A DNA stretch of 64,000 nucleotides from an uncultured Atopobiaceae bacterium (lineage in GTDB: Bacteria; Actinomycetota; Coriobacteriia; Coriobacteriales; Atopobiaceae): contig CANQOF010000008.1 of NCBI GenBank assembly GCA_947625405.1, forward strand, positions 1-64,000. Direction: 5' to 3'. Under the pieces are notes generated by a model. It was not told the origin of the DNA and did not search any database. It was given only the letters and a program-made list of their open reading frames with translations. Position 1 is the first letter of the stretch. The number at the start of each line of letters is the position of its first letter. Of this stretch, positions 52,732 to 57,928 are shown piece after piece. The position numbers and the translations under genes are program-made.

Positions 52732-54309
52732 ATGCAGTCTAAACTCGCCCACGCCGCAGAGCGCAAAGCTTGGGGTTTCGCCATCGATCGAGTGATCTCG
52801 GCAGCTTCCGGTCCACAGCGCGAAAAGAACCTCGAGAAACTCATCGACATGGCGGGAAACCTGCTGAAGGACACGGCCCCCGGCGCCACGCGCGGCCTTC
52901 GCGCGGGCCTCTACCCGGGATCGAAGTGGGAGACGTTCCTCTTCTCGCTCATGGACGAGGTCGACCACAACATCATCAAAACGATGATCTTGAACGGCGC
53001 CTATGAGAGCGCGTTCCGCGGCCTTCGCACCTGCACCGAGAACGCCGAGAAGTACCAGTGCAACGTGCCGTGGATCATCCTCTTCGACCCCACGAGCGCC
53101 TGCAACAAGCACTGCATCGGCTGCTGGGCCGCCGAGTACGGCAACCGCATGAACCTCACCTTCGAGGAGATGGACAAGCTCGTCTCGGACGCCAAGGCGC
53201 TCGGCACCCACCTCTTCATGCTCACCGGCGGCGAGCCCCTCGTGCGCAAGAACGACATCATCAAGCTCGCCGAGAAGCACCAGGACTGCGTGTTCAACAT
53301 CTTCACGAACGCGAGCCTCATCGACCAGAAGTTCTGCGAGGACGTGAGGCGCGTGGGCAACATCGCCTTTAGCGTCTCGCTCGAGGGCTTCGAGGACGCC
53401 AACGACATGCGCCGTGGCGAGGGCGCCTTCGACGAGGTCATGGCCGCCTTCGACCTCATGAAGAAGAACAAGCTCATCTTCGGCACCTCCACGGCCTACA
53501 CCTCGAAGAACTACAAGGCCGTCACCGACGACGACTTCATGGATCTCCTCGTGGAGAAGGGCTGCCGCTTCGCGTGGTTCTTCCACTTGATGCCCGTGGG
53601 CGCGGGCGCCGACGTGGACCTCATGCCCACCCCCGAGCAGCGCGAGTACGTGCTGAACCGCATCCGCGAGATCCGCGGCATCACCGGCGGCAAGCCCATC
53701 TTCGCGATGGACTTCCAAGACGACGGCGAGTACGTGGGCGGCTGCATCGCCGGCGGGCGCATCTACTGCCACGTGAACGCCGCAGGCGACGTGGAGCCCT
53801 GCGTCTTCATCCACTACTCCGGCGCCAACATCCGCGAAAAGAGCTGGATCGAGTGCCTCCAGCAGCCGCTCTTCCAGGCCTACCGCAAGCACTGGCCCTT
53901 CAACGACAACCTCTTGAAGCCCTGCCCGATGCTCGAGAACCCGGGCCAGATCTACATGATGGTGCACGAGAGCGACGCCCACAGCTCCGACTACGCCTCG
54001 CCCGAGACGGTCGAGGAGCTCGTCGAGCGTACCGTGCCCTACGCCGAGGCCTGGAACGAGACGGCCGACCGCATCTGGCTCTCCGAGCACCCCACCGGCA
54101 AGAAGGTCTACGCCGACGCGCTCTCCACGGTGGGCGTCGACGACAAGGCCAAGCTCATCGCCGCCGACGACGCGGCCGCCGAGGCCGAGCTCGAGGAGCT
54201 GGCCGCCGATGCCGAGGAGATGGGCGCCGAGTTCGGCGACCTCGAGGAGGCCGTCGTGGCCGCGACGGCCGAGGAGCGCGAGGCCGTGCACGCGATGTAT
54301 CGCAAGTAG
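52732..54309 (+). CDS. radical SAM protein with SPASM-like C-terminal cysteines
   Basis: A 525-residue enzyme. A helical N-terminal region (about 115 residues) precedes the radical SAM core, with [4Fe-4S] cysteines 124, 128 and 131 in CNKHCIGCW and the SAM motif LTGGEPL. After the barrel, cysteines in GGCIAGGRIYCHVNAAGDVEPCV and in PCPML could bind auxiliary clusters as in SPASM proteins. The last ~90 residues are an acidic, Ala/Glu-rich helical tail. The reaction is unknown. It has its own leader and terminator and no operon partner. It is 3.2 kb from the orphan RiPP precursor, but a link is only a possibility. Confidence 0.8.
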   Translation: MQSKLAHAAERKAWGFAIDRVISAASGPQREKNLEKLIDMAGNLLKDTAPGATRGLRAGLYPGSKWETFLFSLMDEVDHNIIKTMILNGAYESAFRGLRTCTENAEKYQCNVPWIILFDPTSACNKHCIGCWAAEYGNRMNLTFEEMDKLVSDAKALGTHLFMLTGGEPLVRKNDIIKLAEKHQDCVFNIFTNASLIDQKFCEDVRRVGNIAFSVSLEGFEDANDMRRGEGAFDEVMAAFDLMKKNKLIFGTSTAYTSKNYKAVTDDDFMDLLVEKGCRFAWFFHLMPVGAGADVDLMPTPEQREYVLNRIREIRGITGGKPIFAMDFQDDGEYVGGCIAGGRIYCHVNAAGDVEPCVFIHYSGANIREKSWIECLQQPLFQAYRKHWPFNDNLLKPCPMLENPGQIYMMVHESDAHSSDYASPETVEELVERTVPYAEAWNETADRIWLSEHPTGKKVYADALSTVGVDDKAKLIAADDAAAEAELEELAADAEEMGAEFGDLEEAVVAATAEEREAVHAMYRK

Positions 54310-54674: not shown

Positions 54675-55799
54675 CTATCGCGTCGGGGTGCCCATCGCCG
54701 TTGCGATCGACTGCTCGTAGGGCGGGCGCAGCACGCCCTTCTCCGTGACGATGGCGGCGATGAGGCGAGCGGGCGTGACGTCGAAGGCCGGGTTGTAGAC
54801 CTTCACGCCCTCGGGCGCCATGCGATGCGCGTAGTGGAGCTCGGTCACCTCCGAGGGGTCGCGCATCTCGATGGGGATGTCCGCGCCCGTCGCGCAGGTG
54901 GCGTCGAAGGTCGAGGTCGGTGCGCACACGTAGAAGGGCACCCCGTTTTCGGCCGCGGCGAGCGCGAGCATGGAGGTGCCGATCTTGTTCGCCGTGTCGC
55001 CGTTCGCCGCGATGCGGTCGGCTCCGACGAAGATCGCGTCGATGGCACCCGTGGCCATGAGCGAGTTCGACATGTTGTCGCAGAGAAGCGTCGTGTCCAC
55101 GCCGGCGGTCATGAGCTCGAGCGCGGTGAGGCGCGCCCCCTGGAGGAGCGGCCGCGTTTCGTCGCAGTACGCGCGAAGCGCCATGCCGTGCTCTTTCGCG
55201 AGGTAGATGGGCGCGGTCGCCGTGCCGTACTCCACGGCGCAGAGACGTCCCGCGTTGCAGTGCGTGAGGACGCCGAAGCCGTCGGAGATGAGGGTGAGCC
55301 CGTGCTCGCCGATGGCGCGGCAGCTCGCCACGTCCTCGTCGCGGATCGCGCGCGCCTCGCGGGCGAGGCCGTCCACCATGAGCTCGGGGTCGAGCTGCGT
55401 GCAGGCGGAGCACGAGGGGTCGGTGGCCACGGCGGCGAGCATGCGGCGCGTGGCCCAGGAGAGGTTCACCGCCGTCGGACGCGAGGAATCGAGGTAGGCA
55501 CGCGTCTCGAGGAGCCGCTCCCACACGTCCTCCGACGCGGCGGTGGGATGCGCCTCGAGCCAATGGCGCGCGTCGAGGTAGAGCGCCATCGCGGCGAAGA
55601 CCCCGATCGCCGGCGCGCCGCGCACTTCGAGGCGCTGAATCGCGCGGTACGCCTCTTCGCGCGTGCGCAGGTGCTCGAGCACCACCTCGCCGGGAAGCAG
55701 CGTCTGGTCGATGATGACGATCTCGCCCGCGGTGTTATTGAGTTCGAGTGTGGGCACGCCGGCGATGCTCTCGCGGCGCTCGATGACGGTTTCGGCCAT
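54675..55799 (-). CDS. mtnA: S-methyl-5-thioribose-1-phosphate isomerase
   Basis: A 374-residue eIF2B-like isomerase of the methionine salvage pathway, converting methylthioribose-1-phosphate to the ribulose form. Family motifs are RGAPAIGVFAAMAL, the catalytic cysteine in LTHCNAG, the LLCDNM region and the ADRIAANGD segment with the catalytic aspartate. No other methionine-salvage gene is in the window. The ATG at 55799 has only a weak site (GCGAGAG). It lies alone inside the inverted-repeat segment. Confidence 0.93.
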   Translation of the reverse strand: MAETVIERRESIAGVPTLELNNTAGEIVIIDQTLLPGEVVLEHLRTREEAYRAIQRLEVRGAPAIGVFAAMALYLDARHWLEAHPTAASEDVWERLLETRAYLDSSRPTAVNLSWATRRMLAAVATDPSCSACTQLDPELMVDGLAREARAIRDEDVASCRAIGEHGLTLISDGFGVLTHCNAGRLCAVEYGTATAPIYLAKEHGMALRAYCDETRPLLQGARLTALELMTAGVDTTLLCDNMSNSLMATGAIDAIFVGADRIAANGDTANKIGTSMLALAAAENGVPFYVCAPTSTFDATCATGADIPIEMRDPSEVTELHYAHRMAPEGVKVYNPAFDVTPARLIAAIVTEKGVLRPPYEQSIATAMGTPTR

Positions 55800-56007
55800 G
55801 GGCTCTCGCTTTCCGTACGCACTCGTGTATGCGCAATGAGCGTACCCCACCACACGTCACGCTGAACGCGCGAGAGGTGATGGAGATTTCGCACGCGCCG
55901 CGCATCCCGCGCACGTCTTCGCAGGCCAGCAAACAGTTCGATGAAATTCAATCTAACCGTTCACCCTTTGCAAGGTCTGTGGGCTTGACAGGCGATACCG
56001 TGGGCGC

Positions 56008-57084
56008 ATGAGCATCATCCTCACAGGCACCTGGGCCTTCGCCATCATGCGCATGAACCTTGCGGATGAGGCGCCGCTCTCCCAAGCGTGCTGCGAGCAG
56101 ATACTCGATGAGGCGCGCTGCCCCGTCGAGCAGGTTCGCGCGATCCGTCGTCGCGTCGATGACGAGGGTCTCCTCGGCCATGATCGCTCACTCTGGTCGC
56201 GCCTGCAGCACCTCGACGTACTCGTCCCCCGCCCCTCGGCTGACCGGCAGCTCGAAGGCGTGAAGATCCACACGCACGCGCTCCCGCTCGCTCCGGAGTC
56301 GCTTGTGCGGGTACGAGGGGATTTCGGCCTCGGCAACAACGTCTTCATCACCTCGCCCGCGCTCACCTACCAGCTCCTCTGCGCGCGAAGACCATTCCCC
56401 ATCGCGGTGCTCCTTGGGCTCGAGATACTCGGGAGCTTCCACCGGATTCCCGGCGAGGGCGGGCGCACGTGCTACGACGTGGCGCCCGTGACCACCCATG
56501 CGGCACTCTCGAAGGGGATCGCGGATCTTTCGCAGGCGTATGCGAGAAGTCGAGATGCGGGTCTCAAGAGCCATGCGCCGGTGGGGCTCGGTGTATGCCA
56601 GCGCGCACTTCCATGGCTCAAGGAGGGATCCGCCTCGCCCATGGAAGCCGCGCTCTTCGCGCTCCTCTGCCTTCCGATTAGAAACGGCGGCTACGGTCTT
56701 CCGTTTCCCGAGCTCAACGGCAAAATCGTGCTGAGCTGGCGCCAAGAGCGCCTCACGGGGACGCGCTCCATGCGCTTCGATTTCCTCTGGCGCGATGTCG
56801 GCTTTGCCGTTGAGTACGACAGCGACGCCTACCACGTCGAGGGCGTCACGCCCGAGAAGGTGCTCAGGGATAAGCGCCGCATCAACGCGGCGAAGATCGC
56901 GGGGATCGACGTGCTCACCATCACGCGCAACACCGTGATGAAGCGCACGTCCTTCGACCTCTTCGCATCGGAGCTCGCGCAGCGGCTCGGCAAGCGCCAA
57001 CGCGCGCTCAGCTCCCATACGCTCATGGCGCGCGCAGACCTGCGCGACCTGGTCCTCTATGGCCGCAAGAGCCGGAGTTTCTGA
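56008..57084 (+). CDS. DUF559/Vsr-like nuclease-fold protein
   Basis: A 358-residue protein. The N-terminal ~200 residues resemble no domain I can name, though they recall AbiEi-like or transcription-factor-like modules. The C-terminal ~150 residues look like a PD-(D/E)xK nuclease of the DUF559/Vsr type. The core is SPMEAALFALLCLP, then RFDFLWRDVGFAVEYDSDAYH and later DKRRINAAKIAGIDVLTIT. Candidate catalytic residues are the Asp in FDFLW and the Glu/Asp in VEYDSD. Its last eight codons lie inside the right inverted repeat, and the TGA stop is part of a TTTCTGA heptamer. The start is uncertain because there is no clear ribosome site. Confidence 0.65.
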   Translation: MSIILTGTWAFAIMRMNLADEAPLSQACCEQILDEARCPVEQVRAIRRRVDDEGLLGHDRSLWSRLQHLDVLVPRPSADRQLEGVKIHTHALPLAPESLVRVRGDFGLGNNVFITSPALTYQLLCARRPFPIAVLLGLEILGSFHRIPGEGGRTCYDVAPVTTHAALSKGIADLSQAYARSRDAGLKSHAPVGLGVCQRALPWLKEGSASPMEAALFALLCLPIRNGGYGLPFPELNGKIVLSWRQERLTGTRSMRFDFLWRDVGFAVEYDSDAYHVEGVTPEKVLRDKRRINAAKIAGIDVLTITRNTVMKRTSFDLFASELAQRLGKRQRALSSHTLMARADLRDLVLYGRKSRSF

Positions 57085-57286
57085 CTCGGATTCCCGATTC
57101 GAGGGGACGAAAGCGCAGAAAGAGTGGGCCTCGCGCCACGAAAAGTCAGAAACTCCCGCCCTCACGCCAGATTTAGGTGAATCCCATGTCAGAAACTCCT
57201 TGCCTCGTGCCACCCAACGTCGCGAGGCAAGGAGTTTCGGTACCTTCCTGCCGTGAACCCGTGTAATTCTGAGATGTTATGTAAAG
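57061..57286. repeat. right 226-bp inverted repeat of the mtnA/nuclease segment
   Basis: Inverted counterpart of 54430-54655. The outer part (57186-57286) is nearly identical to the left copy, with two differences in 101 bp. It contains a hairpin (57189-57239) and a second internal one (GGAGTTTCTGACT at 57074 against AGTCAGAAACTCC at 57145). It begins inside the 3' end of the nuclease-like gene. No transposase is encoded, and no flanking direct duplication is visible. Confidence 0.92.
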
Positions 57287-57556
57287 TTCGAGTGAGGAGG
57301 GACGAGCGAGGGGGTTGAGGGCGGAGGGAAAGCGCGGCGGGCATGGGGGAGACGGAGCGAGCATCGTCCAGTGGGGATGGTCTGTGCGGCGTGCCCGAAA
57401 GGCGGACGAGGGTTCACGAGCGTCCATGCGCATGCCGATTGTTCGCATCTGGTAATCCGGCGTGCGAAGCTCGTACGTAGAATCGAATAACGCGAAAACG
57501 ATCAGTCGGGCGTGGCACGGTGCTGCTCGCTGTTTTCGGAAGGGAAGGGATTCAAC

Positions 57557-57928
57557 GTGAACGAGAACATGACCCGTTTCTACGAGGCGGTCTCGGCTGA
57601 CGAGGGGCTCCAGGCCGAGCTCGCGGCCGTGGCCGAGGGCGTGCAGATCGAGGGCGTGCCGGAGGCTGAGGCCAAACAGGCCGTGGCCGAGGCGCTCGCC
57701 GCCTTCGCCGCCGCGCACGACTTCGACCTCAGCGCGGAGGACGTGCTCGCGGCCGACGCGGAGCTCTCCCAAGGCGAGCTCTCCGAATCCGAGCTCGCGG
57801 CCGTGGCGGGTGGAGGCGACTGCATCTGCATGGTCGGCGGCGCTTCGAAGGGCTCCTTCTGCCTCCTCATCGGCGCGGGCAAAGGCCTCTCGGAATTAAA
57901 GATGTGCGCCGTCCTCTTCGGTGTGTAG
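57557..57928 (+). CDS. Nif11-type leader peptide, probable RiPP precursor
   Basis: A 123-residue precursor-like peptide. Residues 1 to about 86 form an acidic, Ala/Glu-rich helical leader with the Nif11-like pattern (MTRFYEAVSADEGLQAELA start, AAHDFDLSAEDV) and the terminal GELSESELAAVAGG, a double-glycine export/cleavage motif. The remaining ~37 residues are a Gly-rich putative core with cysteines at 89, 91, 102 and 117. No modification enzyme or peptidase-exporter lies beside it, so the gene is an orphan in this window. The GTG at 57557 follows AAGGGA; the ATG at 57569 is the alternative. Confidence 0.75.
   Translation: MNENMTRFYEAVSADEGLQAELAAVAEGVQIEGVPEAEAKQAVAEALAAFAAAHDFDLSAEDVLAADAELSQGELSESELAAVAGGGDCICMVGGASKGSFCLLIGAGKGLSELKMCAVLFGV

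Follow-up and report, generated by a model that had tools for sequence, protein, structure and literature searches.

The gene at positions 57557-57928 of the window, which is the whole 64,000-nucleotide stretch that was analyzed and contig C8 of its genome (assembly of 1.72 Mb in 33 contigs, 98.5% complete), encodes a Nif11-type double-glycine precursor. The gene is an orphan in its immediate neighborhood only and is one member of a precursor family that is dispersed over the genome. We consider it probable (roughly 0.6) that this family shares a trans-acting radical SAM-SPASM maturase, for which the tandem C9 pair is the likeliest candidate, that its products leave the cell by NHLM-type export, and that their cysteines likely form thioethers.

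In the mechanism that we propose, the Nif11 leader would recruit a radical SAM-SPASM maturase encoded elsewhere, most likely the C9 pair, and the core would be modified by this enzyme at its Cys-x3-Gly units, where the likeliest product is a Cys thioether link inside or close to each unit. Export would then fall to the single NHLM system on contig C1 (a C39 peptidase/ABC protein, a second ABC protein and an HlyD-like protein), which would cut after Gly-Gly and secrete a peptide of roughly 37 residues. The precursor family is apparently undescribed: a limited literature search found no open-access paper on Nif11 precursors in Coriobacteriia or on this core.

The precursor gene and its sisters

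The features of the gene are as follows, all on the forward strand of the window.

57540..57549 (+): Shine-Dalgarno-like AAGGGAAGGG, 7 bases upstream of the GTG start, read from the sequence
57557-57928 (+): Nif11-leader precursor gene, 123 aa, stop included; based on PF07862, sisters and syntenic orthologues
57557..57814 (+): leader, residues 1-86, ending in ELSESELAAVAGG (74-86); based on the sister alignment
57815..57925 (+): core GDCICMVGGASKGSFCLLIGAGKGLSELKMCAVLFGV, residues 87-123, 37 aa, with Cys 89, 91, 102 and 117
57827..57841 (+): first Cys-x3-Gly unit, C91-MVG-G95; C91 and G95 invariant in 11 sisters, Cys-Gly at +4 enriched
57854..57856 (+): codon 100 (Ser), the site of the third Cys in five-Cys sisters; based on the sister alignment
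57860..57874 (+): second Cys-x3-Gly unit, C102-LLI-G106; C102 and G106 invariant in 11 sisters

The GTG start was accepted because the sister genes start at the same residue; at the Shine-Dalgarno position, the sisters carry AAAGGA or AAGGGA. An earlier, sequence-only reading had placed a Nif11-type double-glycine precursor here, and its coordinates, the leader end, the core of about 37 residues and the four cysteines agree with the sequence and the sister alignment. Profile searches gave 25.2 bits for Pfam Nif11 PF07862 (cut-off 23.8). Cleavage by a C39 peptidase is predicted after Gly-Gly 85-86, which is present in all sisters. In structure predictions the leader is helical (pLDDT 70-90 for residues 1-70) and the core has no confident structure; neither sequence nor fold searches returned a credible solved relative of the precursor.

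Searching the genome with the target and inspecting the retrieved stretches yielded about a dozen sisters that share its leader, spread over eight other contigs; the sequence-only reading had proposed to look for such genes. The 15 matches comprise the target itself, 10 full-length sisters whose core motif is that of the target, two peptides with Cys-containing cores of a different type (L012 and L014), one with a related leader and a Cys-free core (L013), and a truncated copy (L015). C13 carries a cluster of five matches and C6 a cluster of two; the others are single. Eleven sisters are 48-62% identical to the target across the whole peptide, and all of them retain the Gly-Gly and the positions C89, C91, G95, C102, G106 and C117. 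Thus, the earlier label of an orphan holds for the neighborhood, where no LanM, YcaO or C39 gene is adjacent, and fails for the genome, which contains sisters, a C39 NHLM exporter and radical SAM-SPASM genes. Other kinds of double-glycine leader peptides are present on C6, C7 and C10. One Nif11-leader peptide on C10 (L024:9955-10296) has a Cys-free, Lys-rich, amphipathic-looking core, NIFTDIWSGIKKGFDDLGDTLSKVGQDIYGGVKKLLKK, and is kept in the related genome G003.

Orthologues of the target occupy the same place in the genomes of two sister species, G003 (L079) and G004 (L099, also L035), with nucleotide alignments that span both flanks. The core is the same in all three (36 of 37 residues) except for residue 100, where the window has Ser and both orthologues have Ala. 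Among these three genes, dN/dS is 0.09-0.21 for the leader; for the core it is 0.07 in the two differing pairs, the third pair being identical, and this value is rough because it rests on four synonymous changes and one non-synonymous change. Synteny and low dN/dS together show that the target is not a chance open reading frame. They also bear on the idea that the gene, with its lost cysteine and GTG start, is a paralogue in decay. The target does have one Cys fewer than nearly all sisters, and a sister core on C7 (L015) is truncated; yet decay is barely credible given a core that two other species conserve with mostly synonymous changes, the preserved synteny, and a Cys loss that all members of the target's subgroup have in common. 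The truncated sister (L019:9091-9255) has lost its leader and consists of the core only, just upstream of the C7 radical SAM gene on the same strand. In G004, a tandem paralogue adjoins the target orthologue (L099:4877-5245), and its third Cys is likewise replaced by Ser. The named relatives in which these peptides also occur are MAGs of uncultured Atopobiaceae with 'Lapin' isolate names and one Eggerthellaceae MAG; the name 'Lapin' suggests a rabbit gut habitat.

Leader family, exporter and scattered layout all have known precedents (PMC2887384, PMC10783134). Nif11-derived precursors (N11P, TIGR03798/PF07862) and NHLM export (TIGR03794/03796/03797) were described by Haft et al. 2010 (PMC2887384), and the target system shares with them the Nif11-like double-glycine leader, paralogous expansion and an NHLM-type exporter in the genome. 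It differs in that the target, despite its leader and Gly-Gly anatomy, misses NCBIfam TIGR03798 by 0.5 bit (31.8 versus a cut-off of 32.3), in that the genome has no TOMM or Lan enzymes, and in its host, a gut Atopobiaceae instead of the nitrogen fixers of the 2010 description (PMC2887384). Prochlorosin genes are scattered in the genome and served by one ProcM (PMC10783134). Prochlorosins and synechococsins (ProcA/ProcM) thus resemble our family in having many scattered Nif11 precursors, most of them without a local enzyme (PMC10783134). In contrast to these systems, the target genome has radical SAM genes instead of a LanC-domain protein, and the core of the target family is a conserved motif and not hypervariable.

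Cys-x3-Gly units in the core

The sister alignment gives the family core as CxCx3G-x3-G-CxCx3G-(linker)-Cx3G, with five cysteines. In each pair, the second Cys always has Gly at +4 and the first does not, with one exception. The first Cys of the second pair (Cys 3), a Cys in the other sisters, is replaced in all four members of the target subgroup (by S, A, A and S). Judged from this alignment, the family has five Cys and the four-Cys core is derived from that state.

We counted Cys-Gly pairs at +4 in 22 non-redundant cores and found 61 compared to 22 expected from shuffles, a test that treats related cores as independent. Because the 22 cores share ancestry, the count was redone on nine different core classes from the own genome and other genera, which gave 23 pairs versus 6.9 expected (p ~0.0005); this p value is indicative only, since the classes were hand-picked from matches of a profile built on the target family. 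Cys-x3-Gly also recurs in other core classes that lie beside related radical SAM genes, both in Atopobiaceae and in other families of the order.

The spacing bears on the reading that the product is secreted as a Gly-rich peptide that is either unmodified or disulfide-bonded, the exporter removing the leader and the radical SAM enzymes serving other peptides. In line with this, no enzyme gene adjoins the target or most sisters, the target subgroup tolerates the loss of one Cys, and L013 in the same genome combines a related leader with its Cys-free core. However, precise Cys-x3-Gly spacing across unrelated cores and the co-occurrence with radical SAM genes are not expected of disulfides alone, and most sisters have an odd number of cysteines (five). 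We therefore regard this reading as improbable.

Maturation by a radical SAM enzyme, which we prefer, could in principle involve chemistry other than thioether formation on the same core, namely epimerization, or the spliceotide reaction, in which tyramine is excised at Xaa-Tyr-Gly. Several sisters contain an FYG, MYG, IYG or LYG stretch, and an additional Cys (C229) is present in the C9-like enzymes and missing in C4 and C7; it may correspond to the hydrogen donor of an epimerase. Against this, Tyr-Gly is missing from the target core and from more than a third of the sisters, and the residue conserved in the cores is Cys, not Tyr; we consider such chemistry very unlikely. The target core contains no Tyr and hence no Xaa-Tyr-Gly splice motif of the spliceotide (Plp) type. 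SCIFF peptides have about six Cys in their last 45 residues, compared to four Cys in the target core.

For thioethers, the analogues are streptosactin and freyrasin (PMC8172795, PMC8326336). Streptosactin (GggA/GggB) is an unnested sactipeptide with reported Cys-x2-Ser/Gly rings (PMC8172795). It has in common with the target short Cys-to-Gly units in the sequence, a radical SAM-SPASM gene and a gut or oral commensal setting (PMC8172795), but the target has Cys-x3-Gly and another leader. With freyrasin, a ranthipeptide, the target shares repeated cysteines that are each followed at constant spacing by a known or putative acceptor. Freyrasin has the spacing Cx3D; the putative acceptor of the target is Gly, and none of the CxC cores contains Cys-x3-Asp/Glu. 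In freyrasin (PapA/PapB), the acceptor is Asp, whose carboxylate is reported as necessary, and several links are made per core (PMC8172795). Neither of the two has Cys-x3-Gly spacing, and we infer the thioether chemistry of the target by analogy.

As a tentative extension, which we think possible but would not bet on, the Cys-x3-Gly units may define a new class of radical SAM-matured RiPPs, in which about a dozen scattered precursors of one small genome, one or a few radical SAM-SPASM enzymes and one NHLM exporter produce a combinatorial thioether set with a new ring from the Cys sulfur to the Gly alpha-carbon at +4. Several known sactipeptides are narrow-spectrum antibacterials, and by analogy the product, once secreted, probably acts as an antibacterial or within the species. 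If the proposed maturation is true, natural variants that differ in a single Cys (Ser or Ala at residue 100 in the target and its orthologues) make the family a set of testable substrates for mapping the Cys links.

Exporter and candidate maturases

The genome contains a single C39 domain, which lies in a TIGR03796 protein (908 bits). The gene is followed by that of a TIGR03797 protein (728 bits), both scores being above the cut-offs, and an HlyD-like gene lies on the other side. This set on C1 is an NHLM export set, and it accompanies the double-glycine end of the leaders in the same genome. A genome scan for LanC (LanM synthetase) gave no PF05147 match over the cut-off (best score 10.5 bits), and YcaO (PF02624) gave no match. 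The enzyme classes named by the sequence-only reading are thus represented by radical SAM-SPASM proteins and one C39 exporter, while LanC and YcaO are absent over the cut-offs. That reading would have fallen had no homologue kept the Gly-Gly and cysteines or had the genome lacked maturation or export enzymes; neither is the case.

Among 16 radical SAM matches in the genome, four are of the RiPP-maturase type and each lies beside double-glycine leader precursors: the tandem C9a/C9b, C7 and C4. The other radical SAM contigs that were retrieved looked like housekeeping or unrelated genes, judged from translations and neighbors. None of the radical SAM proteins reached the cut-off of a curated NCBIfam radical SAM subfamily. 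No radical SAM-SPASM gene adjoins the target. The C9 pair lies behind the sister L011, whose core ASDCICPVIGAANGCGCFFYG has the same CIC motif as the target, and this arrangement is kept in G001. Since radical SAM-SPASM genes lie beside other precursors of the genome, the earlier suggestion of modification in trans remains plausible. The closest solved relative of C9a by sequence is SkfB (1.8e-15), and the best matches by predicted fold are SkfB, SuiB and PqqE, from a weak model (mean pLDDT 55). SkfB and SuiB are RiPP maturases with an RRE. A Pfam search for PqqD/RRE gave no match; in the weak predicted model of a C9a orthologue, strands and helices at the N-terminus follow a pattern that would fit an RRE, at low confidence.

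Additional information came from other genomes. CxCx3G cores lie beside C9-like radical SAM genes in three other genera (G124, L118; G260, L142; G362, L143). In G124, precursor and enzyme gene are 50 bp apart; in G260, the distance is a few kb, with a second such precursor nearer. In a tree, the enzymes of these three genomes group with a fourth (support 94/94, just below the tree tool's own threshold). Enzymes adjoining other Cys-x3-Gly cores lie close to this group (89/87), and the C4-type (99/100) and C7-type (100/100) proteins form separate clades. Around the G260 enzyme gene (L142:8706-14557), further Cys-rich double-glycine peptides with CCATC/CCASC cores were seen, and in G069 three C9-like radical SAM genes are interleaved with precursors of a different core motif, GCAATVE.GSWCWS.D.C (L149, C179).

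Across the bacterial family, all 13 genomes that match the precursor profile (A1) have a C9a-like radical SAM protein (threshold E 1e-20), compared to 24 of 140 overall. By genus, it is found in 5 of 5 with the precursor profile versus 7 of 35 (hypergeometric 6e-5), and outside the family in 5 of 6 genomes. As the threshold also catches C4- and C7-type proteins, the association is with this radical SAM group and not with the C9 pair itself.

The C9 pair itself is patchily distributed, which brings in the alternative that another radical SAM enzyme, of the C4 type with its reduced SPASM domain or of the C7 type, modifies the core in trans while the C9 pair serves L011 only. Consistent with this, G003 (91% complete) has the target orthologue and plentiful CxC precursors, but only C4- and C7-type enzymes were found there and the C9 pair was not; only a C4-type enzyme was found in G004 (69% complete), and only a C4-type fragment in G251 (85% complete), which has a CxC precursor. 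The peptide adjoining C4 also contains Cys-x3-Gly (QCSLFG). On the other hand, C4 and C7 each adjoin a peptide of their own, which has another core type and is kept in sister genomes, and three of seven shared SPASM cysteines are lost in C4-type proteins. Furthermore, G001 (88% complete) has the C9 pair without a C4- or C7-type match, and the CxCx3G cores of the three other genera adjoin C9-like and not C4- or C7-like enzymes. We consider the alternative unlikely. In the C4-type protein of the window's genome (L025:8241-9707), encoded beside the QCSLFG peptide, the lost cysteines are changed to M, S and S, and the same loss occurs in G002, G003 and G005, which suggests from sequence a reduced auxiliary cluster. 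G005 has a C9b orthologue, and no CxC precursor was found in it.

Assembly gaps, or more than one enzyme acting on the family, could lie behind the patchy distribution of the C9 pair. For this reason, we rate trans-maturation in general well above the specific pairing of the C9 enzymes with the target, which we infer from the points above. If trans-maturation holds, an anaerobic gut lineage whose genome measures 1.7 Mb applies the logic of the prochlorosins, with many scattered precursors and few enzymes, to radical SAM chemistry in place of LanM, and genome mining limited to neighborhoods overlooks most precursors of such systems.

Surroundings of the gene

The sequence-only reading had singled out the radical SAM protein encoded at 52732 as the nearby modification-type enzyme, and we rejected it as the maturase of the target because it is family-wide and distant from the RiPP-type enzymes. 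We found the protein in 85 of 140 family genomes, spread over 26 of 35 genera; nearly all of these lack the precursors, and the precursor profile matches 13 genomes in 5 genera. Relative to the RiPP-type enzymes, it sits on an end branch of 6.4 in the tree, and most of their common SPASM Cys columns are missing from it. It does match the Radical_SAM and SPASM Pfam families, as many non-RiPP enzymes also do. The protein is probably irrelevant to the peptide, with proximity as the sole link.

Upstream of the precursor gene, we observed an inverted repeat pair of ~256 bases, 83% alike, at window:54418-54672 and 57043-57298; a third copy was not found in the stretches of the own genome that were examined. 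The repeats flank a segment with genes at 54675-55853 and 56008-57084, and each of them has an internal palindrome (GAAACTCCTTGCC...GGCAAGGAGTTTC).
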